Assembly (NCBI GenBank): GCA_021372335.1
Contig: JAJFUR010000036.1
Span: forward strand, 1-41,266
Direction: 5' to 3'
DNA: 41,266 bases
Origin: Methanobacteriota archaeon
Lineage (GTDB): Archaea; Thermoplasmatota; Thermoplasmata; Methanomassiliicoccales; UBA472
Below the pieces are notes generated by a model that was not told the DNA's origin, did no database searches, and was given only the letters and a program-made list of their open reading frames with translations. Of this stretch, positions 1,665 through 26,061 are shown one piece after another; within the stretch, counting starts at the first letter, position 1, and each line of letters opens with the position of its first letter. Both the position numbers and the translations under genes were made by a program.

Positions 1665-1668
1665 CGGC

Positions 1669-2954: not shown

Positions 2955-2990
2955 ATATTAAAACCTTTGCGGGGACCGCACCCCTTAAGT
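2955..2990. promoter_or_regulatory. Divergent promoter region between the HdrA-like operon and the deacetylase gene
   Basis: On the minus strand TTTTAATAT (2963-2955) is a good archaeal TATA box; its centre lies about 29 nt before the ATG at 2930, consistent with a leaderless transcript starting there. On the plus strand a weaker CTTAAGT at 2984-2990 sits about 26 nt before the GTG at 3013. These are motif-based predictions only. Confidence 0.5.
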
Positions 2991-3012
2991 CATCGCCCCG
3001 GGATATCCCCTC

Positions 3013-3837
3013 GTGCGAGCGGTGGCCTTCACGGTGGACGTGGACCGGGATGTGAACCTGGCCTGCCAAGGGGATGTCTGCTCCATATCCAAGGGCGGGG
3101 GGGCGCCCCGCTTCGGGTCCTCCGCGCGGGGGCTCGAGCTGGTCCTGCAGGTGCTGGAGGAGATGGGGGTGAAAGGCACCTTCTTCTGGGAGGGCAGGAC
3201 GGCGGAGGTCCTGAGCGCGCGCATGGACCTGGCCGGGATGATGCGGGGGCATGAGGTGGCCCTCCATGGGTACGACCATGAGGACTTCTCGGGCAAGGAG
3301 AGCGGGCTCCCCCTGGACCGGCAAGGGACCAAGGAGGCTCTGGACCGGGGGGAGGGGGCCTTGGAGCGCGTGTTCGGCCGGGGGCCGAGGGGCTTCCGGG
3401 CACCCTATCAGAGGACGACCGAGGCCCTCCTGGACGAGCTGCGGGAGCGTGGCTATCTCTACGATTCCTCAGAGACCGCCCCCCTGGTCAACGGCGCCGT
3501 CAGCCCATACCTTTTGGGCAATGGGCTTCCGGAGGCCCCTGTATGCTGGGCGAGGGACCGCCGGGGAAGGAGGATCGTCTCCTACCTCTGGCCGTACCAT
3601 GAGGGGAAGCGGCCGATGGGGGACTACCTGGAGCTGATAGAGGGGTTCCAGGAGGGGCTGCTGGTGATCGCCACGCACTCCTGGCATCTGGTGGAGAGCT
3701 ATTGCGCAGGCCTCCGGCCGGAAGAGGAGGTCAGGCGGGGGACCGACGCCCTTCGAACGCTCCTCGAGGGGGCCGAGCGGGCGGGGGCGGAGCTGGTCAC
3801 CATCGCCGCGCACCTGCGGAGGGCGCATGCCCTGTGA
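3013..3837 (+). CDS. Polysaccharide deacetylase-like (NodB homology) protein
   Basis: The 274-residue product shows the carbohydrate esterase family 4 layout: TVDVDRDVN near residues 5-13 (catalytic base and metal Asp), HGYDHEDF near 84-91 (the metal-binding His pair), FRAPYQR near 129-135, and VIATHSWH near 216-223. There is no signal peptide or membrane segment, so it acts in the cytoplasm, perhaps on a nucleotide-linked sugar or glycolipid head group; the substrate is unknown. The start is GTG at 3013, consistent with a leaderless mRNA. Its 3' end overlaps the DUF3786 gene by 11 nt, implying co-transcription and coupling. Confidence 0.8.
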   Translation: MRAVAFTVDVDRDVNLACQGDVCSISKGGGAPRFGSSARGLELVLQVLEEMGVKGTFFWEGRTAEVLSARMDLAGMMRGHEVALHGYDHEDFSGKESGLPLDRQGTKEALDRGEGALERVFGRGPRGFRAPYQRTTEALLDELRERGYLYDSSETAPLVNGAVSPYLLGNGLPEAPVCWARDRRGRRIVSYLWPYHEGKRPMGDYLELIEGFQEGLLVIATHSWHLVESYCAGLRPEEEVRRGTDALRTLLEGAERAGAELVTIAAHLRRAHAL

Positions 3838-4426
3838 TCCCTCCCATCGGCAGGCAATGATGCTGGCCTGGGACGCCCTGGCCCGGGTGCCGGACGAAAG
3901 GCTGGCCGAGGCCTCGGGAGGGGAGCTGCGAGGCCGGGAGCTGGCGCTGACGACCCTGGGACAATGGACGATGGTGGACCTGGCCGATCGCACCGTCACC
4001 ACGCCTGACCTCCTGGGCGGGAGCTGGGGGCTCATCGCCCTCCACCACCTGAAAGGATGCCTCGCCTGGAAGGACGACGCGGAATGGACCTCCTATGACC
4101 AGGTGGCGGAGGGACGCCCCTTCGCCGCGGCCTTCCAGGCGAGGGGGATCGCACCCTTGGCGGACCGTTTCGGGGGGAGCCCCGGGGACCTGGTCCGCAC
4201 CGTAGGGGCGCTGGGGGGAAGGCCGATGGCGCTCGGGGACGCGGCGGCGGTGCTCCATGCCTTCCCCCGCCTCAAGGTGGCGGTGGTCGTATGGCGCGGG
4301 GACGATGAGGTCTCTGACAGGGCCGTCCTGCTTTTCGAGAGGGGAGGCGCCCGCACGCTCCCGGCAGAGGACCTTGCCGAGGCGGGGATAGCCCTGTCCC
4401 AGGCGCTGATCAGTAAAGCCCGGTGA
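3827..4426 (+). CDS. DUF3786-family protein
   Basis: This 199-residue protein has the C-terminal pattern of DUF3786: HAFPRLKVAVVVWRGDDEV, then AVLLFERGGARTLPAEDLAE, matching the family's typical line of a hydrophobic strand, WxGDDE and LFD...LptEDL. The family occurs mainly in strict anaerobes and its function is not established; links with corrinoid or C1 metabolism are only contextual. ATG 3827 follows GGAGGGCGC, an in-place ribosome site inside the end of the deacetylase gene. The 3' end overlaps the convergent fhs gene by 17 bp. No transmembrane segment or metal cluster motif is visible. Confidence 0.7.
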   Translation: MPCDPSHRQAMMLAWDALARVPDERLAEASGGELRGRELALTTLGQWTMVDLADRTVTTPDLLGGSWGLIALHHLKGCLAWKDDAEWTSYDQVAEGRPFAAAFQARGIAPLADRFGGSPGDLVRTVGALGGRPMALGDAAAVLHAFPRLKVAVVVWRGDDEVSDRAVLLFERGGARTLPAEDLAEAGIALSQALISKAR

Positions 4427-6083
4427 TCCTGCCGTCCTCGTCTATGTCGATCCCGAGGGCGGAGGGGCGGGACGGGAGGCCGGGGATCAGCATTATGCGC
4501 CCGCATATCGGCACCACGAAGCCCGCGCCCTGGGACACGAAGATCTCCCTCACGGTGAGCTCCCAGTCCGTAGGCGCGCCCTTCAGCTCGGGCTTGTCCG
4601 TGAGGGAAAGCTGGGTCTTGGCCATGCACACCATCATGTTCCCCAGCCCCGCCTCCTCGATGGTCCGGAGGTGCCTCTGGGCCGCGGTCTCGTATTCCAC
4701 GCGCTTGGCCCCGTACATCTCGGTGGCGATCCTGCTGATCTTGTCCTTCAGGGACATCTCCATGTCGTACAGGAAGCGGAAGGCGCAGGGGTCCTTCTCC
4801 ATGGCCTCGAGGACCTGGTCAGCGAGCTCGAGCCCCCCCTCCCCGCCCCTGGCGAAGACGTCGGAGAGGGCGGAGCGCACCCCCATCTCCCGGCAGTGCT
4901 CCCGCACCAGGGCGATCTCCGCCTCGGTGTCGGCGGCGAAGTGGTTTATGGCGACGACGATGGGCACCCCGAAGTGCCGGAGGTTATCGATGTGCTTGTC
5001 CAGGTTGGGAAGGCCGGCGCGGAGCGTCTCGAGGTCCTCGCATCCGACCGCCTCCAGGGGGCAGCCGCCGTGCATCTTAAGGGCCTTGATGGAGCAGACC
5101 AGGACTGCGCAGTTCGGCCGGAGGCCGTTGCTCCTGCATACGATGTCGAAGAACTTCTCTGCGCCGAGGTCGGCCCCGAAGCCGGCCTCGGTCACCACCA
5201 CGTCCGCCAGCTTCAGCGCGTACTTGGTGGCGATGATGGAGCTGTTGCCGTGCGCGATGTTGGCGAACGGGAAGCCGTGGATGAAGAAGGGCTGTCCCTC
5301 CAGGGTCTGGACCAGGTTGGGGTGGATGGCGTCCTTCAGAAGGGTGGCCATGGCCCCCACGCACCCCAGCTCCTTGGCGTGGACGGGGCGGTTGTCGTAC
5401 GTGTAGCCGACCAGGATCTCGCCCAGGCGCTCCTTGAGGTCGGTCATGGAGGTGGTGAGCGCCAGGATGGCGCTGATCTCCGAGGCCACCGTGATTATGA
5501 ACCCGCTCTCGTGCGGGATCCCTCCCTCCTTCCGCCCCCCGAGGCCGACCACTATGTTGCGCAGCTCGCGGCAGTTCATGTCGATCGCCTTCCTCAGGAA
5601 GATGCGGGTGGGGTCTATGTTCAGCCTGTTCCCCTTGGCGATGTGGTTCTCGAGGATCGCTGACAGGAGGTTGTGCGCCGCCCCCACGGCGTGGATGTCC
5701 CCCGTGAAATGAAGATCGATGTCCCACATGGGATAGACCTGGGCGAGGCCGCCGCCCGTCGCCCCGCCCTTGAGCCCGAAGGTCGGTCCGAGGGAAGGCT
5801 CGCGGATGGCCCCCATCACCCTCCGGCCCTGCTTCCCCAGCGCCTCGACCAACCCGATGGTCGTCACCGTCTTCCCCTCCCCGGCCGGCGTAGGGGTTAT
5901 CGCAGTGACCAACACCAGCCTTCCGTCCGGACAGCCCTCGTACCGCCTGAGCACCGGCAGGGGCACCTTGGCCATGTAGCGGCCGTAGGGGATCAGCTCC
6001 TCCTCTGCGATCCCGATTTGGGCGGCCACCCTTTCGATCGGAAGCGCCTTGGCCTCCTGGGCTATCTCGATGTTGCTCTTCAT
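4410..6083 (-). CDS. fhs: Formate--tetrahydrofolate ligase
   Basis: The 557-residue product is full length for 10-formyltetrahydrofolate synthetase, which joins formate to tetrahydrofolate using ATP. Clear family segments are TPTPAGEGKTVTTIGL (P-loop, residues 63-78), EPSLGPTFGLKGGATGGG, FTGDIHAVGAAHNLL, TEAGFGADLGAEKFFDI and FVVPICGRIMLIPGLPSRP. ATG 6083 is the family start. It is divergent from folD, which makes and uses the next C1-folate intermediates, so the pair supplies formyl and methylene units for purine and amino-acid synthesis. This suits a methanogen whose C1 biosynthesis uses folate rather than tetrahydromethanopterin, although that is inference. A minus-strand TATA-like CATTTAAGG lies at 6116-6124. 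Confidence 0.95.
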   Translation of the reverse strand: MKSNIEIAQEAKALPIERVAAQIGIAEEELIPYGRYMAKVPLPVLRRYEGCPDGRLVLVTAITPTPAGEGKTVTTIGLVEALGKQGRRVMGAIREPSLGPTFGLKGGATGGGLAQVYPMWDIDLHFTGDIHAVGAAHNLLSAILENHIAKGNRLNIDPTRIFLRKAIDMNCRELRNIVVGLGGRKEGGIPHESGFIITVASEISAILALTTSMTDLKERLGEILVGYTYDNRPVHAKELGCVGAMATLLKDAIHPNLVQTLEGQPFFIHGFPFANIAHGNSSIIATKYALKLADVVVTEAGFGADLGAEKFFDIVCRSNGLRPNCAVLVCSIKALKMHGGCPLEAVGCEDLETLRAGLPNLDKHIDNLRHFGVPIVVAINHFAADTEAEIALVREHCREMGVRSALSDVFARGGEGGLELADQVLEAMEKDPCAFRFLYDMEMSLKDKISRIATEMYGAKRVEYETAAQRHLRTIEEAGLGNMMVCMAKTQLSLTDKPELKGAPTDWELTVREIFVSQGAGFVVPICGRIMLIPGLPSRPSALGIDIDEDGRITGLY

Positions 6084-6115
6084 GCACTCCCTTCGGGACC
6101 GATATCCAGACGCGC

Positions 6116-6152
6116 CTTAAATGGTTTGCCGGGGGCCGGCAATTCTTTAATA
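6116..6152. promoter_or_regulatory. Divergent fhs/folD promoters
   Basis: The 100-bp gap holds TTTAATA at 6146-6152 on the plus strand, placing a start site about 26 nt later just before the folD ATG at 6184, and CATTTAAGG (6124-6116) on the minus strand, about 35-40 nt before the fhs ATG at 6083. Close spacing suggests shared control of the two C1 genes. Confidence 0.5.
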
Positions 6153-6183
6153 CGGCTAAGGCATCAAGAGCCCCGGGCCGGAC

Positions 6184-7089
6184 ATGGGCGCTAGGATCTT
6201 GGAGGGCAAGCAGGTCGCGGACGGGGTCAAGCGGGGCCTGAGGGAAAGGATAGCAGTGCTTGAGGCGCGGGGCGTGGTCCCCGGGCTTGCCGTCATCATG
6301 GTGGGCGACGATCCCGCCTCGGCCTCCTACGTGAACATGAAGGGCAAGGCCTGCCAGGAGCTGGGGCTGCGCTCCAGGGCGCTCCGCATGCCGGTCGACC
6401 TCCCGGAGGATGAACTGCTTAAACTGATCGACGGCCTGAACCATGACCCGGAGATCAACGGCATTCTGGTGCAGATGCCCGTGCCCAAGCACATAGACGT
6501 GGGCAAGGTCATAGCGGCCATCGATCCGGATAAGGACGTGGACGCCTTCCATCCGATCAACGTCGGTAAGATGCTCATCGGCAGCGGGGACGGCTTCCTT
6601 CCCGCCACCCCGCATGGTATCCAGGTCCTGCTCGCTGCGTACGGCATCGACGTCGCCGGGAAGCATGTGGTGATAATAGGCAGGAGCAACATAGTGGGGA
6701 AGCCCCTGGCGGCCATCCTCATGCAGAAGGGGAAGGGCGCCGACGCCACGGTCACCGTCTGCCACTCCCGGACCAGGGACCTGAGGGCGATCACCACGCA
6801 GGCGGACGTGCTGGTCTGCGCCGTCGGGAAGGCGGGCTTCGTGACCGCGGACATGGTCAGGGAGGGGGCGGTCGTGGTGGACGTCGGCTCCAACAGGATC
6901 GAGGACCCGGCCGCGCCCAGAGGCTACCGCTTCGTGGGGGACGTCGACTTCGAGGCCGTGCGGGAGAAGGCCTCGGCGATCACCCCCGTGCCCAAGGGGG
7001 TGGGGCCGATGACCATCGCCATGCTCATGTACAATACGGTGCTGGCTGCGGAGAGGGCCTTGGAGCGCCAAGGGGGGCCGAAAGTTTAA
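6184..7089 (+). CDS. folD: Bifunctional methylene-THF dehydrogenase / methenyl-THF cyclohydrolase
   Basis: The 301-residue product matches FolD over its whole length. Visible segments are VGDDPASASYVNMKGKAC (catalytic Tyr and Lys region, about residues 41-58), GILVQMPVPKHI, KDVDAFHPINVGK, VVIIGRSNIVGKPLAAIL (NADP-binding loop, about 161-178) and a C-terminal TPVPKGVGPMTIAMLM. It interconverts methylene-, methenyl- and formyl-tetrahydrofolate in the cytoplasm. It is divergent from fhs, the partner that makes 10-formyl-THF. The stop is TAA; a TATA-like AGTTTAAGTT at its very end serves the next gene. Confidence 0.95.
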   Translation: MGARILEGKQVADGVKRGLRERIAVLEARGVVPGLAVIMVGDDPASASYVNMKGKACQELGLRSRALRMPVDLPEDELLKLIDGLNHDPEINGILVQMPVPKHIDVGKVIAAIDPDKDVDAFHPINVGKMLIGSGDGFLPATPHGIQVLLAAYGIDVAGKHVVIIGRSNIVGKPLAAILMQKGKGADATVTVCHSRTRDLRAITTQADVLVCAVGKAGFVTADMVREGAVVVDVGSNRIEDPAAPRGYRFVGDVDFEAVREKASAITPVPKGVGPMTIAMLMYNTVLAAERALERQGGPKV

Positions 7090-9237: not shown

Positions 9238-10227
9238 ATGGTGCAAGTGCTCAAGCCGGAGGAGGTCACGGACAGATACGGAAGGATGTTCTGCCGTGGC
9301 GTGTACACGTTGGTGGACGAGAGGAACGGGGTGGCCCAGGTCAGGGAGGAGTGCTCGGCCAGGGGCCCGGTGGAATGGGACGCCTGCAACCGCAAGCGCG
9401 CGGGAGGGGCGATGACCAAGGTCACCGTGGAGGGCAACACCATCATCATGGACACTATCATTGGGGAGGGCGAGGTGCGCTTCGGTCCCGCCTCGAAGGA
9501 CCTGGGGGGGCAGGGGTTGCGCTCCCTCATCGTCGACGGGGACAAGGTCCGCACCACGTGGGTGGGCCTTGCGGGGGCCAGCGTAGGCATCGGCGCCTGC
9601 CTCCCCCAGGGCCCGGGCACCATCTCCGCTGAGTACCAGGACGAGGTCCACATCGGTGGCGCCCACCAGGTGGAGGTCACTATCGTAACGCCCAAGCTGA
9701 TGCGCGTGATCATCGCGGTGGACGACACGGACACGAAGCAGCAGGGGGCCTCGTGGTCCATGGTGCTGAAGGTCGCCCGGGAGTGCCCCGTCGGGACGCT
9801 CCTCGAGCATAAGATCGTGCAGCTAAACCCAAACGTACCGGAGAAGACCACCAACTGCGTCTCCGTGGGGGTCAGTTTCGCGGTCAGGGAGAAGGACCTT
9901 CCAGCCCTGCTCGCCTATTTCAAGGAGGCCCTGCGGAAGAACACCTTCTCCCAGGAGACCACCATGGCCTATTTCGTCGGCCTGCGGATCCCGAAGGAAC
10001 TTGAGGAGTATGGATGGAGGGCGAAGAGCGTCATCTATAACATCGGGCAGGCGAGGGACGTGGCCTCCCGGAACGGGGTGGAGGTGGTGGAGATCACTGG
10101 CCGCCGGGGCACCATCGGGGCGGTGGCGGCCATAGGGTGCTTCGACCTGGGCGTGAGGGCGGCGGGCCTGCCCGAGGACTTTGTAGAGCACAGAAATTAT
10201 TTCGCCACGATAGTTCCATCATCGTGA
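9238..10227 (+). CDS. mmp11: Methanogenesis marker protein 11 (C-terminus altered by IS insertion)
   Basis: The 329-residue product matches methanogenesis marker protein 11, found in methanogens and of unknown biochemical role. It has the acidic motif IAVDDTDTKQQGAS at about residues 158-171, as in the TiaS-like ATP-dependent family, followed by PNVPEKTTNCVSVGVSF and a Gly-rich GRRGTIGAVAAIGCFDLGVRAAGLPEDF. ATG 9238 follows in-frame upstream codons inside the preceding gene and is the family-like start MVQVLKPEEV. After PEDF the reading frame enters an insertion sequence and gains VEHRNYFATIVPSS; the original end, recovered from the other side of the element at 11200-11224, was LPEDFES and a TAG stop. 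The core is intact, so it is probably still functional. Confidence 0.88.
   Translation: MVQVLKPEEVTDRYGRMFCRGVYTLVDERNGVAQVREECSARGPVEWDACNRKRAGGAMTKVTVEGNTIIMDTIIGEGEVRFGPASKDLGGQGLRSLIVDGDKVRTTWVGLAGASVGIGACLPQGPGTISAEYQDEVHIGGAHQVEVTIVTPKLMRVIIAVDDTDTKQQGASWSMVLKVARECPVGTLLEHKIVQLNPNVPEKTTNCVSVGVSFAVREKDLPALLAYFKEALRKNTFSQETTMAYFVGLRIPKELEEYGWRAKSVIYNIGQARDVASRNGVEVVEITGRRGTIGAVAAIGCFDLGVRAAGLPEDFVEHRNYFATIVPSS
10167..10181 (+). repeat. Left copy of the 15-bp target-site duplication
   Basis: CCTGCCCGAGGACTT directly precedes the left terminal repeat and is identical to 11200-11214. It encodes the native mmp11 codons for LPEDF. Confidence 0.93.
10182..10205 (+). repeat. Left terminal inverted repeat of the IS
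   Basis: Begins TGTAGAGCACA and ends AATTATTTCGC. It differs from the reverse complement of the right repeat at three positions (A/T at base 4, GA/AG at bases 12-13). Confidence 0.9.
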
Positions 10228-11165
10228 CGAAGCTGAACGATACGAAGATACGCTTCATCTGCAGGCAGATCTCCGCGGGAACGATGAGCTGCCGGCAGGC
10301 GGCGGTCCTCTATGGCGTCAGCGTCAGAAGGGTGCAGCAATTGATATGCCAGTATCGTCAAGGAGGAGAACCTCCCAAGCTCTCCAAGGGGAGGCGCCCG
10401 AAGGCGCCTCCCCTCACGAACGATGAGCGGAAGCTCATCGATACGTACTGGGAGCGGTACCGCTTCGGGTCCAGGCATCTATTCAACCTCATGCGCTCTG
10501 AAGGAGTCCAGATACCTCATCACAAGGTGCGGGCGCACCTTGTGCAGACCGGACGCGTGCTGGACAGCCCGAACAAGCAGAAGAAGCGCAGCCGATGCCG
10601 TTACGAGCGGGAGCACTCCTTCTCGCTCATACACGGAGACTGGCACAGGACCTCGGAAGAGCACCCCCACGTCATCCTGTGGCAGGACGACGCGAGTCGG
10701 ATGATCCTCGCCGGTGGCGAGTATCCCGAGCGGTCGATGGAGCATTCCATCGACACCCTGAAGCAGGCAATGGAGGTGGCCAGATCGTTCAACTCGTTCA
10801 TTTGCGAGGTGAACACCGACCGGGGGTCGGAGTTCTTCTCCAATCATCCGAAGGATGAGAAGAGGACCAGGAACAACGCCGTTTCCAAGAACGGCTTCCA
10901 GCTGTTCCTGGAAGCGAACGGCGTACGGCACGTGGTCAGCCGGGTGAACAACCCGCAGACCAACGGGAAGCTGGAGCGACTGTGGCTGGAGTACGACCGC
11001 CACCGCTGGCGGTTCGCCAGCCTGGCGGAGTTCATCGATTGGTACAACGGCCGCATGCACGGCGGCCTGTGCTGGGAGATCGCCGAGACGCCGGCGATGG
11101 CCATGCAGCGCAAGCTGCGGCCAGAGTGCATCATTGGATTGTTCTGGAGGTGCGTGGAATGCTGA
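10224..11165 (+). CDS. IS481-type DDE transposase
   Basis: The 313-residue protein has an N-terminal helix-turn-helix (MSCRQAAVLYGVSVRRVQQL, about residues 17-36), a linker, and an rve integrase core. The acidic triad is readable as Asp in LIHGDWHRT, Asp in VNTDRGSEFF and Glu in NPQTNGKLERLWLEYD, followed by FIDWYNGRMHGGL. The GTG start at 10224 overlaps the stop of the altered mmp11 frame in a GTGA, so translation may be coupled to mmp11. The gene is intact, ends in TGA and lies wholly between the terminal repeats. The IS481 assignment rests on motif spacing and element ends. Confidence 0.88.
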   Translation: MTKLNDTKIRFICRQISAGTMSCRQAAVLYGVSVRRVQQLICQYRQGGEPPKLSKGRRPKAPPLTNDERKLIDTYWERYRFGSRHLFNLMRSEGVQIPHHKVRAHLVQTGRVLDSPNKQKKRSRCRYEREHSFSLIHGDWHRTSEEHPHVILWQDDASRMILAGGEYPERSMEHSIDTLKQAMEVARSFNSFICEVNTDRGSEFFSNHPKDEKRTRNNAVSKNGFQLFLEANGVRHVVSRVNNPQTNGKLERLWLEYDRHRWRFASLAEFIDWYNGRMHGGLCWEIAETPAMAMQRKLRPECIIGLFWRCVEC

Positions 11166-15972: not shown

Positions 15973-17427
15973 TCAGGCGAACAGAGCCTGTGCGGCATTC
16001 TGGCAGAGCTGGATGAAGTATTCCGGGAACACCCCTATGCCGATGACCGCCAGCACGCAGATGGCCACCGCGGCGGCCATGCCCTTGGGCAGCTTCAGCC
16101 TCTCGGACGGGGCTCCCTCGTCCAATTCGTCCACGTACATGTACTTGACCACGCGGGCGTAGTAGTACAGGGATATGGCGCTGTTGATGATACCAGCGAC
16201 CGCCAGCCACACCATCCATTCCGAGCCGGCCACCGTCCCCATTATTGGGGAGGAGAACAGCACGACCTTGCTGGCGAACCCTGCCAATGGCGGGATCCCG
16301 GCCAGGGAGAACAGCAGGATGGTGATCGAGAAGGCCATGAAGTTCGATCTCTTTGCCAATCCCTTGTAGTCCGATATCCTGTCCCCTATGGCCACGGTGG
16401 CCAGGGTTGCTACCGCGATGAACGCGCCCCCCTTCATGAAGGCGTGGGTCAGGATATGGAATATCCCTCCGGTGACCGCGTACTCCGTTCCCACCGGCAG
16501 CGCCATCAAGATATAGCCCGCCTGGGCGATGCTCGAGTAGGCGAGCATCCGCTTGATGCTCGTCTGGTTCAGTGCAGCCAGGTTGCCCAAGGTCATGGTG
16601 ACTATGGACAGGATGGCGACCACCACGTCCCAGTCCGCCTTGATGGCGAGCATGCCGATCAGGAAGAACTTGAACATGGCCACGAAGCCCATCTTCTTGG
16701 AGCCCGCCGCGAGCATGGCGGTGATGGTCGTGGGTGCGCCCTCGTACACATCCGGGGCCCAGGAGTGGAACGGGACCATGGCCACCTTGAAGCCGAAGCC
16801 CACCATGACCATGACCAACGCCAGCCAGAGCATCTCCCTGTAGCCGTCCAGGGTGCCGACGAGGACGCCGACCTCCTGGAAGGAAGTCGTCCCGGTCAGG
16901 CCGTACACCAGGGATATGCCGAACAGGGTGAAGGCCGATGAGATGCCTCCGAAGATGAAGTACTTCGTGGCCGCCTCCGCCCCCTTTATGTCCTTCTTGC
17001 GGAAGGCCACAAGGGCATACGAGGACAGGCTCGTGATCTCTATGCCGATGTAAAGCACGAAGAGGTCGGTGGATGCGGCCACCAGCATCATGCCCACGGT
17101 CGCCAATAGGATCAGGGAGTAGTACTCCGCCTTATGCCGCTCGTCCTCTATGTACCTGATGGAAGCCAGGATGACGAGGAATGCCACCGTCAGGAACACC
17201 AGCATGAACAGGCCGCTGAAGTCGTCCAGGACGAGCAGCCCGGTGTCGAACACCACCCTGCCCGTGCCTTCGACGAAGTGCATGACCACTGCCAGCATGG
17301 ACAGACCCACCCCCGCGAGGGAGAACCCCGCAAGGAACCTGCTGTCCTTCACGAGGATGTTGACCGCGGGAACGGCGATGGCGAACAGCGCCAATATCAG
17401 CTCGGGATAGATCGCTGAGTAGTCCAC
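15973..17427 (-). CDS. fpoN: Fpo/Nuo complex membrane subunit N
   Basis: The 484-residue, highly hydrophobic product is the NuoN/FpoN antiporter-like subunit with about 14 transmembrane helices. The signature segment PFHSWAPDVYEGAPTTITAML with the following Lys pair in GSKKMGF, and KRMLAYSSIAQAGYIL, carry the proton-path residues. It pumps ions across the membrane as part of the complex. The GTG start at 17427 has GGGAGGGATC just upstream, next to the fpoM stop. It is the last gene of the operon; no fpoO or fpoF follows. Confidence 0.95.
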   Translation of the reverse strand: MDYSAIYPELILALFAIAVPAVNILVKDSRFLAGFSLAGVGLSMLAVVMHFVEGTGRVVFDTGLLVLDDFSGLFMLVFLTVAFLVILASIRYIEDERHKAEYYSLILLATVGMMLVAASTDLFVLYIGIEITSLSSYALVAFRKKDIKGAEAATKYFIFGGISSAFTLFGISLVYGLTGTTSFQEVGVLVGTLDGYREMLWLALVMVMVGFGFKVAMVPFHSWAPDVYEGAPTTITAMLAAGSKKMGFVAMFKFFLIGMLAIKADWDVVVAILSIVTMTLGNLAALNQTSIKRMLAYSSIAQAGYILMALPVGTEYAVTGGIFHILTHAFMKGGAFIAVATLATVAIGDRISDYKGLAKRSNFMAFSITILLFSLAGIPPLAGFASKVVLFSSPIMGTVAGSEWMVWLAVAGIINSAISLYYYARVVKYMYVDELDEGAPSERLKLPKGMAAAVAICVLAVIGIGVFPEYFIQLCQNAAQALFA

Positions 17428-18915
17428 TTAGATCCCTCCCAGTAGACCGATCACAGCGCCGAGCGCAGGCCGGATGTAGTCAAGGACCAGGGCCGGGAAC
17501 ATGCCGAAGAGCACGATGAACCCGGAGAGCACGGCCAGCGGCAGCGCCTCGAACCAGTACACGTCATGCAGGTGCTCGACGTCCACCTCCTTGGTCAGCG
17601 GGCCGAACAGGGTCCGCTGCATCGCCCAGATGTAGTAGCCGGCGGTGATGGCCACGCTTGTGATGGGGATCAGCAGCAGCCAACCGAAGGCATCGAAGGT
17701 CGCGGTGAAGACCGAGAATTCGGCCACGAACCCGACCATCCCGGGAAGGCCCAGGGATGCCAGGAACCCGATCATCATGAACGTGGCAGCGAACGGCATC
17801 TTGGCCGCGAGCCCACCCAGCCGGGGGATGTTCCTGGTGCCCGTCTTATGCTGCACCACCCCACACATCATGAAGAGGACGGCGGTGATGAGGCCGTGGG
17901 CGAACATCTGGAGCACGCCTGCGGCGATGCCCAGCTCCGTGAACGTGGCGAACCCGAGCATCACTATGCCCATATGGCTGATGGAGGAGTAGGCCACCAT
18001 CTTCTTGAGGTCCTTCTGCGCCAGGCACATTATGGCCCCATAGACTATGGACAGGATGGCGAGGGCGACCATGACCCATTGCCATTCGTGGGCGCCATCG
18101 GGCAGGGCCGGGAAGGCGATGCGGATGACCCCGTAGGAGCCCATCTTAAGCAGCAGGCCGGCCAGCAGGACCGACCCCCCGGTCGGCGCCTCGACATGCG
18201 CGTCCGGAAGCCACGTATGGAACGGGAACGACGGCATCTTCACGGCGAAACCGAAGAAGAGGGCGCCGAACACGATCACCTGGAACGTATTCCCGAAGAA
18301 GGGGGACACGGCGTTGATCGTCTCCATGCTGAAGGAATTGAACCCGTTCACGGAGGCCGCCTCGAAGTAGAGGGCGAATATCCCCAACAGCATGACGAGG
18401 CTGGCGACGTGGGTGTATATGAAGAACTTGATCGCCGCGTACCCCCTGCGGGGGCCGCCCCACACGTTGATCAGGAAGTACATCGGGATCAGCACGACCT
18501 CCCAGAAGATGTAGAACAGGAAGTAGTCCAGGGCTATGAAGACGCCCAGCACCCCCAGCTCCAGCACCAGCATCAGCCCCATGTACTGGTTGGTGCGGTG
18601 ATCGATGTCCCAGGAGAAGATGATCGCCAGGAACACCAACAGAGTGGTGAGGAAGACCATCGGGACGCTGATCCCGTCCACGCCGAGGATGTACGAGATC
18701 CCGAGGGACTCGATCCAGGTGAAAGATTCCTTGAACTGATAGCCGCCCGCGGTCTGCACATACTCGGTGAGCATGAGCAGGGACAGCACCAGCGGTATCG
18801 CGGAGAACACCAGCGCAGAGATCTTGGCCAGCTTGGGGTTCTTTCCCATCATGAAGGTGATCACAGCACCGATCAGCGGGAAGAGCAACAGTAGGGATAG
18901 TATCGGTAGTTCCAT
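17428..18915 (-). CDS. fpoM: Fpo/Nuo complex membrane subunit M
   Basis: The 495-residue NuoM/FpoM antiporter-like subunit shows FPFHTWLPDAHVEAPTGGSV, LKKMVAYSSISHMGIVMLGF and about 14 hydrophobic helices. TGGGYQ-type N-terminal loop FTWIESLGISYILGVDGIS is typical of the family. The ribosome site GAGGTGATC before ATG 18915 is a full match to the archaeal 16S end. It lies 4 nt after fpoL and abuts fpoN. Confidence 0.95.
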   Translation of the reverse strand: MELPILSLLLLFPLIGAVITFMMGKNPKLAKISALVFSAIPLVLSLLMLTEYVQTAGGYQFKESFTWIESLGISYILGVDGISVPMVFLTTLLVFLAIIFSWDIDHRTNQYMGLMLVLELGVLGVFIALDYFLFYIFWEVVLIPMYFLINVWGGPRRGYAAIKFFIYTHVASLVMLLGIFALYFEAASVNGFNSFSMETINAVSPFFGNTFQVIVFGALFFGFAVKMPSFPFHTWLPDAHVEAPTGGSVLLAGLLLKMGSYGVIRIAFPALPDGAHEWQWVMVALAILSIVYGAIMCLAQKDLKKMVAYSSISHMGIVMLGFATFTELGIAAGVLQMFAHGLITAVLFMMCGVVQHKTGTRNIPRLGGLAAKMPFAATFMMIGFLASLGLPGMVGFVAEFSVFTATFDAFGWLLLIPITSVAITAGYYIWAMQRTLFGPLTKEVDVEHLHDVYWFEALPLAVLSGFIVLFGMFPALVLDYIRPALGAVIGLLGGI

Positions 18916-18919
18916 GGGA

Positions 18920-20881
18920 TCACCTCAGCGCTCCTACGACATAGAGAAGGATCAGGACCACCGAGACCCCGAACAGGAGGAGGGTCGCATAGCTCTGTAC
19001 GAAGCCGTTCTGGAGCTTGCGCACCGTCCCGCCCGCCCTGATCAGGAAGGCGCTGATGCCGTTCACAATGCCGTCTATGATATAGCGATCGAACTTGTCG
19101 AGCAGCAGGGAGAAGCCGTACAGGCCTGCATAGCCTATCTTGTCATAGGCCACAGGGAACTTGTAGCGGTCCAGCAGCAGCTGGTGCATGGCCTTGGGGA
19201 AGCCCTTTGCCACGACCTTCTCGGCTGAAATCTTAGGCTTGTAGAAGCTGTAGTAGGCCAGCATTATGCCTCCCACCGCGGCCACTATCGATACATAGGT
19301 CAGCGGGGAGGTGAACACCTCCTCCAGGCGCTCGCCTATGCTCAGCACGTGCGCGTGCTCATAGTAGATCGCCCCGAAGAACCCGTCCCCTATGAAGAGG
19401 GAGAAGCCTGACCCGAAGGCAAGCGCGGCCAGGATGACCAATGGGGCGAGCATGGCGATCGGCGCCTCATGATGATGCCCGTGTTCGATGGCCTGTTTGC
19501 TGCCCTCCCTGGGCTGGCCCTTGAACACCATGAACCACATGCGGAACATGTAGAAGGCGGTCATGAAGGCCGTCAGCACCCCGAGCACCCAGAGGACCAT
19601 GAAGGTCAGGCCGGCGTCCCCGGCGTCGAACGTCACGGAGAGCACCTCGTCCTTGCTCCAGAAGCCGGAGAGGGGCGGGATGCCGGCGATGGACAGGCAG
19701 GAGATCAGCATGGTGATGCTGGTCACCTTCATGTACTTGCCGAGCCCGCCCATCCTGCTCAGCTCCTCCGTGTCCACGTAGTGGATGACCGACCCTGCGC
19801 CTAGGAAGAGCTGCCCCTTGAAGAAGGCATGGTTCATCAGGTGGAACAGGCCGGCCCCGAAGGCGATCGACGCCTCGACGTGGTAGCCTTTGTTCCATAG
19901 GAACGCCCCGGCACCCAGCCCAAGGATCATGTAGCCCAGCTGGGAGACGGTGGAGTAGGCGAGGACCCCCTTGATCTTCGGCGCGCAAAGGGCCATCGTG
20001 GCCGCGAGGAAGGCGGTGATGCCCCCTATGGCGCCGACGAAAAGGCTGACCTCCGCGCTCGTGGCGATGATCGGGAAGGCCCTTGCGACCAGGTACACAC
20101 CGGCGTTGACCATTGTGGCCGCATGGATCAGGGCGGACACCGTGGTCGGACCCTCCATCGCGTCCGGCAACCAGTCGTGCAACGGGAACTGGGCGCTCTT
20201 GCCTATCGCTCCGCCGAACAGGAAGAAGGCTGCGAAGGCCATCATGGCCGGGTCGGCGGTGTCGAGCGCAGCCCACACGCTCTCGTAATTCAGCGTGTGC
20301 AGCTCGGTGAACAGGATGAAGAGGCCGATCATGAACATGACGTCCCCCACCCTGGTGACCAGGAAGGCCTTCTTGGCAGCGCGGGCCGCGGAGGGCCTCT
20401 CGAACCAGAACCCTATCAGCAGGTAGGAGCAGAGGCCTACGAGCTCCCAGAATACGAACATCTGGAAGAAGTTGTTGGCCAGCACCAGGCCGAGCATGAC
20501 GCCTACGAACAGGCAGATCTCGGTGAAGTACCGGTGGCGCCTCGGCCCCTCATCGTGCATGTAGGCGGTGGAGTAGATGACCACCAGGAAGGAGATGAAG
20601 GAGACCACTATCAACATCATGGCCGCCACGCTGTCCAGGAAGATCCCCATCTCCAGGGAGTAGTCGGAGCTGAGGATGACCCATTCGAAGGAGTCCCTAT
20701 AGATCCGGCCGGTGGTGAGCAGTTCGTACGCGGACCACAGCGCGATGACCATTCCAGCCCCGACCCCGAGGATGGAGACGATGCCGCCCTTGTCCTTCAT
20801 CTTGCTGCCCAGGAAGCCTACGATGACGAAGGCGAGCAACGGCAGGACCGGGATCAACCAGGCATATTCCAGTATGTCCAT
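18920..20881 (-). CDS. fpoL: Fpo/Nuo complex membrane subunit L
   Basis: The 653-residue NuoL/FpoL subunit has the antiporter core with FPLHDWLPDAMEGPTTVSAL, IHAATMVNAGVYLVAR and KGVLAYSTVSQLGYMILGLG, followed by a long C-terminal region with several helices and the lateral amphipathic helix expected of L. A His-rich loop EHGHHHEAP sits near residue 472. The ATG at 20881 is preferred over an in-frame GTG at 20890 because GAGGTGG lies at proper spacing before it; the gap to fpoK is then 2 nt. Confidence 0.95.
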   Translation of the reverse strand: MDILEYAWLIPVLPLLAFVIVGFLGSKMKDKGGIVSILGVGAGMVIALWSAYELLTTGRIYRDSFEWVILSSDYSLEMGIFLDSVAAMMLIVVSFISFLVVIYSTAYMHDEGPRRHRYFTEICLFVGVMLGLVLANNFFQMFVFWELVGLCSYLLIGFWFERPSAARAAKKAFLVTRVGDVMFMIGLFILFTELHTLNYESVWAALDTADPAMMAFAAFFLFGGAIGKSAQFPLHDWLPDAMEGPTTVSALIHAATMVNAGVYLVARAFPIIATSAEVSLFVGAIGGITAFLAATMALCAPKIKGVLAYSTVSQLGYMILGLGAGAFLWNKGYHVEASIAFGAGLFHLMNHAFFKGQLFLGAGSVIHYVDTEELSRMGGLGKYMKVTSITMLISCLSIAGIPPLSGFWSKDEVLSVTFDAGDAGLTFMVLWVLGVLTAFMTAFYMFRMWFMVFKGQPREGSKQAIEHGHHHEAPIAMLAPLVILAALAFGSGFSLFIGDGFFGAIYYEHAHVLSIGERLEEVFTSPLTYVSIVAAVGGIMLAYYSFYKPKISAEKVVAKGFPKAMHQLLLDRYKFPVAYDKIGYAGLYGFSLLLDKFDRYIIDGIVNGISAFLIRAGGTVRKLQNGFVQSYATLLLFGVSVVLILLYVVGALR

Positions 20882-20883
20882 CT

Positions 20884-21186
20884 TTACCACCTCAGCAGGT
20901 TAATGTCGTCCACGTCCACGGTCTTCCTCAGCTTGTTGAGGTTCAGCAGGATCGCGAGCCCTATGGTCACCTCGGCCGCGGCGATGCCGATGGAGATCAG
21001 GGCGAAGCCCTGCCCCTTGGCATCCCCGAAATAGGTCGAGAAGGCCACCAGGTTGATGTTGGCCGCGTTGAGCATGAGCTCGATGGCCATCAGCACCTGG
21101 ATGGCGTTCTTCTTCAGAATGACCCCGGCCGCCCCGATGGCGAACAGGGCCGATGATACGATGAGCACGAACTCCAGCGGGATCAT
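20884..21186 (-). CDS. fpoK: Fpo/Nuo complex membrane subunit K
   Basis: The 100-residue product MIPLEFVLIVSSALFAIG... has three transmembrane helices and the NuoK motif AIELMLNAANINLVAFS with the conserved membrane Glu, and a second Glu in IAAAEVTIGLAILLNL. ATG 21186 overlaps the preceding fpoJ stop in an ATGA. It links the L/M/N pumps to subunit H. Confidence 0.93.
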   Translation of the reverse strand: MIPLEFVLIVSSALFAIGAAGVILKKNAIQVLMAIELMLNAANINLVAFSTYFGDAKGQGFALISIGIAAAEVTIGLAILLNLNKLRKTVDVDDINLLRW

Positions 21187-21428
21187 TCGTCGTCCTCCTG
21201 TGCAATGAACACGCCGCCAATGATGACGGAGAAGAGCATCAGACCCAGCATGAGCACCGCCACCCAGTACTCCTTGAACAGCATGGTCCCGATCTCCACG
21301 GTCTTCAGCACCGTGTCGCCGATGTCGCCCCATTCCAGGGAGAGCACCGAGTACAGCATGAGCTCGAGAAGCAGCCCGACGATCAGCACTTTGGCTATGA
21401 TCTTCTGTGTGGAATCGCCCTTCCTCAT
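21183..21428 (-). CDS. fpoJ2: Fpo/Nuo complex subunit J, C-terminal half
   Basis: This 81-residue protein (MRKGDSTQKIIAKVLIVG...) has two hydrophobic helices and ends in VFIAQEDDE. It corresponds to the C-terminal helices of NuoJ, which is split into two genes here as in Methanosarcina fpo clusters. It overlaps both neighbours by ATGA junctions, so the split is organised for coupled translation and is not a sequencing break. Confidence 0.85.
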   Translation of the reverse strand: MRKGDSTQKIIAKVLIVGLLLELMLYSVLSLEWGDIGDTVLKTVEIGTMLFKEYWVAVLMLGLMLFSVIIGGVFIAQEDDE

Positions 21429-21730
21429 GGGGACCGCCTCCTCTTGACGATATTCTGCTCGTACTCCTCGCAAGCGTCCTCCTTGCCCATCCGGCGCTTG
21501 GTGAGCATGATCCCGAAGAGGATGAGCACATTGATGGCGCCAACGTACACGAGGATCTGGATAAGGAACAGGTACTCCGCGTTCAGGAACAGGTAGAGTA
21601 TTCCCACGCCGAGGAAGGTGGCCGCAAGCCACACCACGCTCCGCACTATGTCCTTGGAGATGAGCACCATCATGGCGCATCCCACGGTGAGCGCGGCGAA
21701 TATTATGAAGAAGAACAGGGTTCCGTCCAT
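21425..21730 (-). CDS. fpoJ1: Fpo/Nuo complex subunit J, N-terminal half
   Basis: The 101-residue product MDGTLFFFIIFAALTVGCAM... contains the NuoJ core SVVWLAATFLGVGILYLFLN and EYLFLIQILVYVGAINVLIL, with the pi-bulge helix region that couples electron transfer to pumping. It overlaps fpoI as TGATG and the second J gene as ATGA. Confidence 0.92.
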   Translation of the reverse strand: MDGTLFFFIIFAALTVGCAMMVLISKDIVRSVVWLAATFLGVGILYLFLNAEYLFLIQILVYVGAINVLILFGIMLTKRRMGKEDACEEYEQNIVKRRRSP

Positions 21731-22485
21731 CACAACACCTCCTTGATGCTTAGCGCCGATTTGGGGCATACCTCGATGCATTGCTCGCACACCACGCACT
21801 TGGTGGTGTCGAACTTGGGGCGCTTGATCGGCTTCTTGGTCTTGGGGTTCAGCTCCCCAGTCTCCGCCATCTCGATCGCCCCCGCCGGGCAGGTCTTCGC
21901 GCACCTCGAGCACGAGATGCACTTGGGGGCGTCCAGGACCACGTTGTCATGGACGTTGGGATCGTTCTTGGCGTACGTCCTCACCTCCCCGCCCTTCTTC
22001 ATCTCGGACAGCAGGGCGAACTCATAGTTCACCTCGTAGCCCGGCTTGTGGGGGTACTGGAGCTTCACCGGATCGAAGATGAGGTCCGCCCTGCTATACG
22101 AGCAGAGTTCGAACTCTGGGGTGACGATCATGGCATTGACCGGGCACGTCTCGGCGCAATTGCCGCACATCATGCACCGGCCGACGTTGACCTGCGGACG
22201 CTTCGCCTTGCCCCCCGCGGGGAGCTCAACCTCGACCATCTCGATGCAGCGGTTGGGGCAGTCCCTGGCGCAGCGGGCGCAGCCTATGCACCGCTCCAGG
22301 ACGATGCCCGGCCGTCCCCGGTAATTGTCGGGGTATACCAGCCTCTCCCAGGGGTACAGGACCGTGCACGGCCTGTTCTTCGTTGCCCGCACAAGGCCCT
22401 TGAACGTGACGATAAGGGACTTGAGCACGTAGCCCGTGGGCCTGAGGTGGTCCGCCTTTGTGTAGGTCCTTTCCTCGATCCTCAT
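21730..22485 (-). CDS. fpoI: FpoI iron-sulfur subunit with duplicated 2[4Fe-4S] ferredoxin domain
   Basis: The 251-residue product has the NuoI/FpoI start (membrane-surface helix, then NRPCTVLYPWERLVYPDNYRGRPG) and two ferredoxin motifs, CIGCARCARDCP (Cys 66, 69, 72, 76) and CMMCGNCAETCP (104, 107, 110, 114). Unusually a second pair follows after a 74-residue linker: CISCSRCAKTCP (189, 192, 195, 199) and CVVCEQCIEVCP (230, 233, 236, 240). Common NuoI/FpoI proteins have only the first pair. The extra clusters could accept electrons from ferredoxin or an Hdr-type partner in a complex that has no FpoF. ATG 22485 overlaps fpoH as TGATG. Confidence 0.93.
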   Translation of the reverse strand: MRIEERTYTKADHLRPTGYVLKSLIVTFKGLVRATKNRPCTVLYPWERLVYPDNYRGRPGIVLERCIGCARCARDCPNRCIEMVEVELPAGGKAKRPQVNVGRCMMCGNCAETCPVNAMIVTPEFELCSYSRADLIFDPVKLQYPHKPGYEVNYEFALLSEMKKGGEVRTYAKNDPNVHDNVVLDAPKCISCSRCAKTCPAGAIEMAETGELNPKTKKPIKRPKFDTTKCVVCEQCIEVCPKSALSIKEVL

Positions 22486-23570
22486 CAGAACACCTCCGCG
22501 ACCTTGAGGGCGACTGCTATTAGCAGGTTGATCACCGCGAGGGGCAGGAGCCGCCTCCATCCGAGCTTCAGGATCTGATCGGTCCTGATCCTAACGGTGG
22601 CCGCCCTCACCCAGATGAAGAAGAAGAACACGATGAAGGTCTTCGCCAGGAACCAGGCTTCCGCCCAGATGAACTCGGGACCGGCCCATCCCCCTAGGAA
22701 GAGCATGGTGAACAGCGCGCAGAGGATGTAGGCGCGGAAGTAGTCGGAGGCCATCTGCAGGCCCCAGCGTATATCCCCATATTCAGTGGCCCACCCTTCG
22801 ACCAGCTCCGCCTCGGCCTCGGGGAGGTCGAACGGGATGCGCTCGGACTCTCCTATAGCCGCAATGAAGAAGGTGAGGGCGCCGATGCACAGCGGGAATA
22901 TGAGCCAGATGTTCTCCTCCTGCCAGGCCACTATTCCCACGAAAGAGAGGTCACCCGTCAGTACCACCACGGAGACGACGCAGAGCAGGAGCGGGATCTC
23001 GAGGGCGATGAGCTGGGCGGCAGCCCTCATGCCGCCGATCAAGGTGTACTTGTTGTTCGAGGCCCATCCACCGACCAGGATGCTGAACGGGCCGAAGGCG
23101 AAGATGGCGATCCCCAAGAGCACCGCAAGGTTGACATCGATCACATAGAAGTTGTCAGAGAAGGGAATGCACCCGAAGAGCATGAAGGTCGAGGCGAGAT
23201 AGGTGAAGATGGCCATCTCGAAGAGGGCGTGATCGGAGTCCTTGGGGACGATGTGCTCCTTCAGAACGACCTTGATCCCGTCCGCGAAGTTCTGGAAGAA
23301 CCCGAGCACCCCCACCTGGGTACCGCGCCGGTCCATGAACCTCCCGAGGAACTTCCGCTCTTGCCATATGAAGCATAGGGCGAACATCATGACGGTGATC
23401 AGGTAGATCACGGCCACCAGGAGCGTCGTGACGAAATCGACGACGGGGGCGGATTGGAGCCAGTCGCCGAGGTCGCTGAGGATCCCGAGCTTGGTCCAAT
23501 CGAGGATCGCAGCGATCAGGTCCATCAGCCACTGGGTGAAATCGGTCAATACGGTATAGAGGGTAGCCAT
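22485..23570 (-). CDS. fpoH: Fpo/Nuo complex membrane subunit H
   Basis: The 361-residue product has about eight transmembrane helices and the quinone-chamber loop typical of NuoH: GESERIPFDLPEAEAELVEGW followed by ATEYGDIRWGLQMASDYFRAY. FMDRRGTQVGVLGFFQNFADGIK is also conserved. It forms the membrane anchor beneath FpoB/FpoD where methanophenazine or another lipid carrier would bind. GGTGATC immediately before ATG 23570 is its ribosome site and also contains the fpoD stop. Confidence 0.95.
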   Translation of the reverse strand: MATLYTVLTDFTQWLMDLIAAILDWTKLGILSDLGDWLQSAPVVDFVTTLLVAVIYLITVMMFALCFIWQERKFLGRFMDRRGTQVGVLGFFQNFADGIKVVLKEHIVPKDSDHALFEMAIFTYLASTFMLFGCIPFSDNFYVIDVNLAVLLGIAIFAFGPFSILVGGWASNNKYTLIGGMRAAAQLIALEIPLLLCVVSVVVLTGDLSFVGIVAWQEENIWLIFPLCIGALTFFIAAIGESERIPFDLPEAEAELVEGWATEYGDIRWGLQMASDYFRAYILCALFTMLFLGGWAGPEFIWAEAWFLAKTFIVFFFFIWVRAATVRIRTDQILKLGWRRLLPLAVINLLIAVALKVAEVF

Positions 23571-23574
23571 TTGA

Positions 23575-24660
23575 TCACCGGTCCGTTTCTCCTATGCACA
23601 TGTCCATGACGCCCATAATGGCCGGGACGTCCGAGATCTTGAAGCCGACCAGCATCGGCGGGGAGGCGGACAGGTTCACGAAGTTCGGGGAGCGGACCTT
23701 GAGGCGGTACGGCCTCTCCGTGCCGTCGCTCACCATGTACATCAACGATTCCCCGCGCGGGTCCTCCACGCGACAGACCACGTTCCCCTTCGGCGGGCAT
23801 CGCGGGACCTTGACACGGACCGGGCCGGCCGGGGCCTCCGCCAACGCCTGCCTTATGATCTTCATGCTCTCCCGCATCTCGTCCATGCGCACCCGGTACC
23901 GGGCGTATACATCCCCATCGGTGTGGGTGCATACCTCGAACTTCATATCCGCATAGGCCTCGTACGGGTCCAGCTTCCGCAGGTCCATGTCGACGCCGCT
24001 TGCCCTCAGGATCGGCCCTGTCAGCCCGAGGTTCATCGCGGTCCTGCCGTCCATCTTCCCGATGCCCAGTGTCCTCATCAGGAACGGCTCGTTCTCATCC
24101 ATCAGGGCCTCGAGGTCACGGAGGCGCCTGTCGAACTCATCCAGGGTACGGTTCACATCGCGCTCATAGTTCTCCGGAAGGTCGTTCCTGACCCCCCCGA
24201 TGCGACAATAGTTATAGGTCATGCGCGCGCCGCTCAGTTTGCACAGGAGGTCCAGGAACAGCTCCCTCTCCCTGATCGACCATGTCATGATGGTGTAGCT
24301 TCCCAGGTCGGTCCCGACGGCCATGAGCCAGGTGAGGTGGGAGGTGATGCGCTGCATCTCCAATGCGGCCACGCGGATGTATTTGGCCCGGTCAGGGGCC
24401 TCGACCCCGAACAGCCTCTCGGCCGTCAGGCAGTAAAGGTGGTTCCAGGAAAGGGACGAGCCGTAGCAGAGGCGGTCCGCGAGCGGGACGATCTGGGGAT
24501 AGGCGCGGTTCTCCACCATCTTTTCCCAGCCCCTGTGCAGGTACCCGATGATCGGCTCGGCGGCCGTGATCGTCTCCCCTTTGAGCTTCACCCTGAGGTT
24601 CCACAGGCCGTGGTTGAATGGGTGCTGCGGCCCCATGTTGATCCACATCTCGTCCGTCAT
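23575..24660 (-). CDS. fpoD: Fpo/Nuo complex 49-kDa-type subunit D
   Basis: The 361-residue product starts MTDEMWINMGPQHPFNHGLW and has LCYGSSLSWNHLYCLTAERLFG, LEMQRITSHLTWL, FLDLLCKLSGARMTYNYCRIGGVRND and the C-terminal DVPAIMGVMDMCIGETDR, all diagnostic of the NuoD/49-kDa family. Ni-binding Cys of hydrogenases are absent. It forms the quinone-site side facing FpoB. ATG 24660 is preferred to an upstream in-frame TTG at 24678 because GGAGGG lies just before it. Confidence 0.95.
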   Translation of the reverse strand: MTDEMWINMGPQHPFNHGLWNLRVKLKGETITAAEPIIGYLHRGWEKMVENRAYPQIVPLADRLCYGSSLSWNHLYCLTAERLFGVEAPDRAKYIRVAALEMQRITSHLTWLMAVGTDLGSYTIMTWSIRERELFLDLLCKLSGARMTYNYCRIGGVRNDLPENYERDVNRTLDEFDRRLRDLEALMDENEPFLMRTLGIGKMDGRTAMNLGLTGPILRASGVDMDLRKLDPYEAYADMKFEVCTHTDGDVYARYRVRMDEMRESMKIIRQALAEAPAGPVRVKVPRCPPKGNVVCRVEDPRGESLMYMVSDGTERPYRLKVRSPNFVNLSASPPMLVGFKISDVPAIMGVMDMCIGETDR

Positions 24661-24661
24661 C

Positions 24662-25138
24662 TCAGACCCTCCTGCCAACGATGAAGTCCTTCCTCAAAGG
24701 ATGGAACCTGAACTCCTCCGGAAGCATGATGCGGCGGAGGTCGGGATGCCCCTTGAATACGATCCCCATAAGGTCATAGGCCTCCCGCTCATGCCAATTG
24801 GCACCCCCCCAGAGGGGGGCGATGGAGTCCACGGTCGGATCGTCCCGAGGCAAATCCACCTGGACCTCGGCGAGGATGTGATCGGTCCATGAGGAGATGT
24901 GATAGACGACCGTGAAATGGTCCAGGTAGTCGACCGGGGTCACACAGGAGGCGTGCTCGAATGCCAGTTCGTCCCGCATGAACTTGCAGAGCTCGAAGAG
25001 CGATTCGCGGGGCGCTCGGAAGTGCAGCCTGCGCGGGGCGACCTTGAGGAGTTCCACGGAGGGGAACTTGGCCCGTATGGCGCTGGCGACCTCTTCCTCG
25101 GACCGGTCGGGCTTGTCGTAAACGATGACTTGGCTCAT
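24662..25138 (-). CDS. fpoC: Fpo/Nuo complex 30-kDa-type subunit C
   Basis: The 158-residue product ends with the NuoC signature [33 protein letters not shown] and HPLRKDF. It is a peripheral subunit that packs on FpoD and, unlike in some bacteria, is a separate gene. ATG 25138 has AAGGTGG upstream and sits 9 nt after fpoB. Confidence 0.93.
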
Positions 25139-25147: not shown

Positions 25148-25711
25148 TTAATCGCCTAGGAAGCTGCCACGGTTCTCGGCGGTCAACTTTCGGTTGATCA
25201 TGGTAAAGGCCTGGATCAGGGCCTCGGGGCGGGAGGGGCATCCGGGGACGTACACGTCGACGGGGATGAACGTGTCCGCGCCCTGGATGACGTTGTATGC
25301 GTCATACCAGGGCCCGCCGGAGATGGTGCATTCGCCCATTGCGATGACCCACTTGGGCGCGGGCATCTGCTCGTAAAGGGTTCTCAGGATGGGACGGAGC
25401 TTTGCAGATATCCATCCGTTCAAAAGGAGTATGTCGGACTGCCTTGGCGAGGACCGGAACACGATCCCGAGCCGCTCAAGGTCGAACCGGGGGCCACCGG
25501 CCGCGGCCATCTCCAGGGCGCAGCAGGCGATCCCGAAGTGCAGAGGATAGACCGAGTTCCTCTGCCCCCATGACCATATGGGGGTGGTAAGCTTATCGAC
25601 GACCTTCTTGCCCCCCGTGGCCACCGTCGCTTCGCGCAGGAACGTCTTCGTCATATCGCCGAACTGCTTGACCGTCATGGTCATGGCGTTGAACGACAGG
25701 TCTAGATCCAC
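25148..25711 (-). CDS. fpoB: Fpo/Nuo complex subunit B (N2 cluster)
   Basis: The 187-residue product has the tandem-Cys motif FGIACCALEMAAAGGPRFD, then MGECTISGGPWYD and VPGCPSRPEALIQAF, giving the four Cys of the terminal [4Fe-4S] cluster N2. It hands electrons to the membrane carrier. The start is GTG 25711, inside the end of fpoA, with AAGGAGAGG upstream; an ATG ten codons later lacks a ribosome site. Confidence 0.93.
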   Translation of the reverse strand: MDLDLSFNAMTMTVKQFGDMTKTFLREATVATGGKKVVDKLTTPIWSWGQRNSVYPLHFGIACCALEMAAAGGPRFDLERLGIVFRSSPRQSDILLLNGWISAKLRPILRTLYEQMPAPKWVIAMGECTISGGPWYDAYNVIQGADTFIPVDVYVPGCPSRPEALIQAFTMINRKLTAENRGSFLGD

Positions 25712-26061
25712 AATATCCTCTCCTTCTTCAATGAATAGTAGACCCCGGCGAGCATGATGATCAGGAACGATATCGCGGCAATGTTCGCGATGTCGGAGAG
25801 CTGCTCAAAGGCCATGGCCCAGACGAGGAGAAAAACGGTAAGGATGTCGAAGGCTACGAAGATTATTGCATATATGTAGAATTGAACATGGAACTGGATC
25901 TGGGCCTCTCCTATGGGCTTCTCCCCGCACTCGTAGGTGGTATCTCTCATCGCCCCCCGCGTGGTCGGCCGGAATAGCTTCCCCGTGACAACGGCGATGA
26001 CGGGGACGAGCAAAGCTACCAGAGCAAATATTGCAACCGGGAAATAGTCGTCTACGAGCAT
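25702..26061 (-). CDS. fpoA: Fpo/Nuo complex membrane subunit A
   Basis: The 119-residue product has three transmembrane helices and the NuoA motif DTTYECGEKPIGEAQIQFHV, followed by QFYIYAIIFVAFDILTVFL. It is the first gene of the operon. The TATA box TATAAATAA lies about 26 nt before ATG 26061, so the mRNA is probably leaderless. It ends in TAG with an in-frame TGA seven codons further on, inside fpoB, and overlaps fpoB by 10 nt. Confidence 0.93.
   Translation of the reverse strand: MLVDDYFPVAIFALVALLVPVIAVVTGKLFRPTTRGAMRDTTYECGEKPIGEAQIQFHVQFYIYAIIFVAFDILTVFLLVWAMAFEQLSDIANIAAISFLIIMLAGVYYSLKKERILWI

Follow-up and report, generated by a model that had tools for sequence, protein, structure and literature searches.

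The fpo operon and its surroundings

We analyzed a 41,266-nucleotide stretch of DNA from a member of the Methanomassiliicoccales (contig JAJFUR010000036.1, hereafter the window). A complete and intact fpo operon lies on its minus strand, from 26061 down to 15973, in the order fpoA, B, C, D, H, I, J(N), J(C), K, L, M and N. The eleven subunits expected of a headless complex I (A, B, C, D, H, I, J, K, L, M and N) are all encoded within this one operon. It begins with fpoA (25702..26061, recognized by NuoA-type models), followed by fpoB for the N2 subunit (25148..25711; Oxidored_q6, and TIGR01957 above its cut-off), fpoC (24662..25138; TIGR01961 above its cut-off), fpoD (23575..24678; Complex1_49kDa and NuoD models) and fpoH (22485..23570; NuoH models). 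Then comes fpoI (21730..22485), the main subject of this study. The next subunit, FpoJ, is split into two separate open reading frames (ORFs) whose starts are not fixed, one for the N-terminal half (21425..21727) and one for the C-terminal half (21183..21446). Both were taken from the ORF list, as was fpoK (20884..21186), and all three have homologues in the operons of relatives, at the same place in the case of the N-terminal half of fpoJ. The operon is completed by fpoL (18920..20890), fpoM (17428..18915) and fpoN (15973..17427), which score above the cut-offs of TIGR01974, TIGR01972 and TIGR01770, respectively. All of these genes are on the minus strand. The gene fpoO is not adjacent to fpoN; polyprenyl synthase and geranylgeranyl-reductase-like genes are found there instead.

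Several other genes of the window were recorded. Two adjoining ORFs lie at 360-3324 (minus strand). The first encodes an HdrA-like FAD and 4Fe-4S protein, and the second a 448-aa protein whose C-terminal part holds a Fer4 pair. The HdrA-like ORF scores 169.9 bits, far under the HdrA2 cut-off of 1100, and together the two ORFs resemble an HdrA that is divergent or has been split. A formate-tetrahydrofolate ligase (minus strand) and a FolD-type protein (plus strand) are divergently encoded at 4410-7089, in what is a methanogen genome. An ORF at 10137-11165 (plus strand) resembles an integrase-core transposase by eye and matched no Pfam family at E 1e-8.

The genome from which the window comes is 94% complete and encodes McrA, HdrB and HdrD-like proteins. 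No FrhB/FdhB-type protein (PF04422, PF04432) was detected in it, so it has no recognizable FpoF, and no NuoF was detected either. Judged on NuoF, on FrhB/FpoF and on fpoO beside fpoN, the complex is headless, that is, devoid of NuoEFG, FpoF and FpoO. It also differs from the type modeled by NF040612, which works with an F420H2-oxidizing FpoF, as the genome holds no PF04422 or PF04432 protein. An initial annotation of the window had described an fpoA to fpoN cluster without fpoF or fpoO, and this description agrees with the intact operon, the lack of any FrhB/FdhB-type protein in the genome and the lack of fpoO beside fpoN.

A second dicluster module in subunit I

Translation of 21730-22485 on the minus strand gives a 251-aa FpoI (NuoI) with zero internal stops. 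Among its 19 cysteines, 16 fall within four full CxxCxxCxxxC motifs (Cys 66/69/72/76, 104/107/110/114, 189/192/195/199 and 230/233/236/240), and the spacing between C114 and C189 is 74 residues. The coordinates, the four motifs and the 74-residue gap had been reported correctly in the initial annotation. Shuffling the protein at the same composition yielded more than two motifs in 0 of 100,000 trials.

The first two motifs, which hold the N6a and N6b ligands, belong to the NuoI core (residues 1-143; 22057..22485). This part matches the NuoI subfamily model TIGR01971 at residues 35-141 with 140.6 bits (curated cut-off 113.05) and aligns at residues 13-147 with the NdhI of structure 6hum. The score against NF040612, the model for FpoI of F420H2 dehydrogenase, is 106.8 bits, below the curated cut-off of 180. 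A linker (residues 144-184; 21934..22056), which occupies part of the C114-C189 gap, leads to an extra C-terminal 2[4Fe-4S] module (residues 185-251; 21733..21933). This module carries two more complete CxxCxxCxxxC motifs beyond the NuoI core, and residues 188-244 match Fer4 dicluster models (Fer4_7).

Comparison with four relatives gave a dN/dS of ~0.11-0.15 for residues 185-251, which indicates that the second module is under purifying selection. An AlphaFold2 model built from seven alignment rows reached a pLDDT of 40.8, and its geometry is unusable for cluster distances. We also asked whether the charge of the hairpin between motifs points to a docking site for ferredoxin. The mean net charge is +1.2 in the second module and +0.4 in the first; as two-motif relatives are also basic, this feature does not discriminate.

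Distribution of the second module

The four-motif protein occurs in 20 of the 22 genomes of the same family and, across the order Methanomassiliicoccales, in 128 of 147 genomes, including 73 of the 74 with a completeness of 90% or more. Apart from a few shortened matches, the alignments across the order reach the FpoI C-terminus. Every full-length member that was read keeps the extra module, and all 16 ligands are retained across the order. The initial annotation had stated that known NuoI and FpoI proteins have one motif pair. This is true of every solved subunit I that we matched and of the 135-position FpoI model, but a whole order carries two pairs.

Outside the order, we read subunit I in 40 nuo/fpo regions of Thermoplasmatota. 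Seven more families have a four-motif subunit I (f7, f13, f18, f20, f23, f26 and f40), and twelve have two motifs (f8, f9, f10, f19, f24, f25, f27, f33, f34, f41, f49 and f50). In one further family (f11), subunit I has six motifs in one genome (L064, G339) and five complete motifs plus one short of a ligand in another (L089, G445), so that the module has gained a third pair. One genome of family f7 (G356) carries two separate nuo operons (L096 and L097), each with a four-motif subunit I. The distance between C114 and C189, 74 residues in the window, is 50-74 residues across 49 relatives. Beyond Thermoplasmatota our coverage consisted of solved structures, plasmids and one pattern scan. A bacterial plasmid-borne relative (83% query cover, 29.5% identity) was set aside because it lies in an apparent rnf cluster, not in complex I. 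The four-motif subunit I is a real, old and shared trait.

A probable single origin in Thermoplasmatota

We built a tree of the complexes from subunits B, D and H, leaving out subunit I. All complexes whose subunit I has at least four motifs fall into one clade (bootstrap/SH-aLRT 100/99), together with one two-motif row, L063. A strict clade of complexes with at least four motifs, without L063, was not rejected (p-AU 0.695), and the constrained tree was 8.4 lnL better; therefore, L063 represents either a loss of the module or an early branch. In a separate analysis limited to 71 columns, the second modules formed one clade apart from the first modules (SH-aLRT 96), so lineage-by-lineage duplication of the first pair is not supported. 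The simplest account of these trees is a single gain of the second module followed by vertical inheritance, with the module passed most simply to the Methanomassiliicoccales and to non-methanogens alike.

The exceptional subunit I (L063:5654-7276, plus strand; G160, family f27) has only two motifs, and its C-terminus is a low-complexity tail of the KEPAKEA type. Two NuoF-type genes are located elsewhere in this genome. The complex can thus do without the module in a lineage within or bordering the clade, as would be expected if the extra clusters were present as a structural or electron-storing domain off the catalytic path. We regard this reading as very improbable because all 16 ligands are retained across the order, and the expansion to six motifs suggests that electron transfer matters.

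The second module and the missing head

None of the operons examined with a subunit I of at least four motifs contains an FpoF or NuoF gene. The two-motif operons of related Thermoplasmatota are equally headless (FpoF/NuoF not in the operon), and the headless Fpo of Methanothrix is described as ferredoxin-dependent in PMC7374477. The module is therefore not required when the head is missing, and the proposal of the initial annotation that it replaces FpoF is not supported.

We also looked for FpoF elsewhere in the order. PF04432 matches were found in 16 of the 147 genomes; in none of the six inspected does the protein lie in an fpo operon. Five of these six proteins are FrhB-like, with an HdrA-like ORF as their neighbor; the sixth is a large fusion protein. 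At L100-L104 (families f3 and f1 of the order), a 377-382 aa FrhB-like protein adjoins an HdrA-like C-terminal ORF and a small ferredoxin-like ORF; this gene group, which stands apart from the fpo operon, is possibly a module linked to F420 or ferredoxin. A protein matching PF01512 is encoded by 3 of the 29 sampled genomes with at least four motifs, compared with 10 of the 16 two-motif genomes, and never near the nuo operon. We do not take this contrast as a link between the second module and loss of NuoF, because the trait arose about once, so the contrast is not an independent one.

A fixed ferredoxin relay as the proposed role

The simplest role for the second pair is a relay on the ferredoxin side. 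In NDH-1, ferredoxin binds NdhI and feeds the chain N6a-N6b-N2 (PMC6992706, PMC7021789), and ferredoxin is the accepted donor of the complex in Methanomassiliicoccales according to PMC4153887 and PMC7374477. Studies of Methanomassiliicoccus luminyensis reviewed in PMC7374477 lead us to expect that the present complex likewise oxidizes ferredoxin and pumps protons. In family f18 the linker shrinks to 50 residues and is partly alignable with the ends of two-motif NuoI proteins, so the module cannot roam far. Docking of ferredoxin at the tip of subunit I in NDH-1, together with a tether of 50-74 residues, therefore favors a fixed input relay. On balance we lean towards the C-terminal 2[4Fe-4S] module being a fixed ferredoxin-like relay on the N6a input side of a headless, ferredoxin-linked complex I.

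By analogy with cyanobacterial NDH-1, whose two-cluster NdhI receives ferredoxin at N6a, the module would be the immediate neighbor of this cluster. A soluble carrier of low potential, most probably ferredoxin (which HdrABC-MvhADG would reduce in these methanogens), would deliver electrons to the two extra clusters, from where they would pass to N6a, N6b and N2 and drive proton pumping. The second ferredoxin-like domain probably lengthens the electron-entry wire of the pump, and the third pair in L064 fits such a role, as a wire could be extended further. The effect of the module would be a wider or longer input port; it would not substitute for FpoF as a catalytic head. Two points speak against this reading: NDH-1 accepts ferredoxin at N6a without such a module, and about half of the sampled carriers are probable oxygen users.

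The extra clusters could instead take electrons by direct contact with one dedicated partner enzyme, such as an HdrA-type protein, a 2-oxoacid:ferredoxin oxidoreductase or another flavoprotein, and not from free ferredoxin. The C-terminal halves do resemble the enzyme-linking polyferredoxins VhuB, FwdF and MvhB, and an HdrA-like gene pair is present in the same window. Nevertheless, we consider this unlikely: there is no fused partner gene, none was identified in the operons examined, and the metabolisms of the carriers are so different that a single common partner is hard to expect. Of the 29 sampled genomes with at least four motifs, only six encode McrA, all of them Methanomassiliicoccales; the 23 without McrA comprise all those sampled outside the order. 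A haem-copper oxidase is encoded by 15 of the 29, and about half of the sampled carriers are thus probably oxygen users. Because the module is not tied to methanogenesis, an Hdr-type partner, which the initial annotation had suggested, is not supported as its general role. The earlier entry-port idea is reasonable, given a real second pair under purifying selection in complexes without FpoF or an operonic NuoF; its parts concerning FpoF replacement and Hdr docking are not supported.

The oxidases raise a further alternative, in which the proton motive force of oxygen-using carriers drives the complex backwards and the module gives electrons to ferredoxin. Although sequence does not fix the direction, this could apply to part of the clade only, and forward ferredoxin oxidation in Methanomassiliicoccales is backed by the biochemistry reviewed in PMC7374477. 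We rate it a little lower than a dedicated partner. The module might also serve as an exit in Methanomassiliicoccales, which have no HdrE, handing electrons straight to HdrD. Direct contact between Fpo and HdrD has been proposed (Lang 2015 as cited in PMC7374477; PMC10804542), and HdrD-like proteins are encoded in the genome of the window. Such an exit is highly unlikely, as electrons leaving before N2 would bypass the pumping site and the module occurs in the sampled genomes that have no McrA.

Electron entry into a headless complex I matters to the energy conservation of gut and wetland Methanomassiliicoccales, and to archaeal respiration generally. Because the module is found in methanogens as well as in probable oxygen users, our results suggest that this mode of electron entry predates both lifestyles in the group. 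The fused module, with its eight extra ligands, is a defined target for the study of electron entry, and nature offers variants that have zero, two or four extra motifs to compare it with.

Comparison with known systems

The complex itself is already known. The headless Fpo-like 11-subunit complex of Methanomassiliicoccales (Borrel 2014, PMC4153887; Kroninger 2016 and 2019, via PMC7374477) is the same complex, with fpoA to fpoN, without FpoF and FpoO and with ferredoxin as the proposed donor. The available text of these sources does not mention a four-motif FpoI, and in that of PMC4153887 FpoI appears merely as a table entry. We found no description of the second motif pair in the open papers searched; as this covers the open literature, we do not assert priority. 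The feature described here is the second motif pair of subunit I, which a whole clade shares. We consider it about as likely as not that the pair amounts to a third type of complex I input, distinct from the NuoEFG/FpoF heads and from the bare ferredoxin site of NDH-1. On this view, core subunit I acquired a fused ferredoxin wire a single time in Thermoplasmatota, and both methanogens and oxygen users have retained it; one family has expanded it to six motifs, and one lineage within or bordering the clade lacks it.

The FpoI of Methanosarcina, compared here through the 135-position model NF040612 only, is homologous to the N-terminal half, and the operon order is alike. It has one motif pair, whereas the FpoI of the window is almost twice as long. 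For every subunit I chain from a solved complex I structure that gave a match, the match is confined to the NuoI part and goes no further than residue 176. Among these chains, the NdhI of cyanobacterial and chloroplast NDH-1 (6hum, 6khi) belongs to a complex I that is likewise headless and that ferredoxin enters at N6a of subunit I. There, ferredoxin is a separate protein and the small subunits NdhV, NdhS and NdhO surround the site, while in the FpoI of the window a dicluster module is fused. The polyferredoxins MvhB, VhuB and FwdF are of the same 2[4Fe-4S] type as the C-terminal module, but they are separate subunits of other enzymes, whereas the FpoI module is part of a core subunit of complex I.
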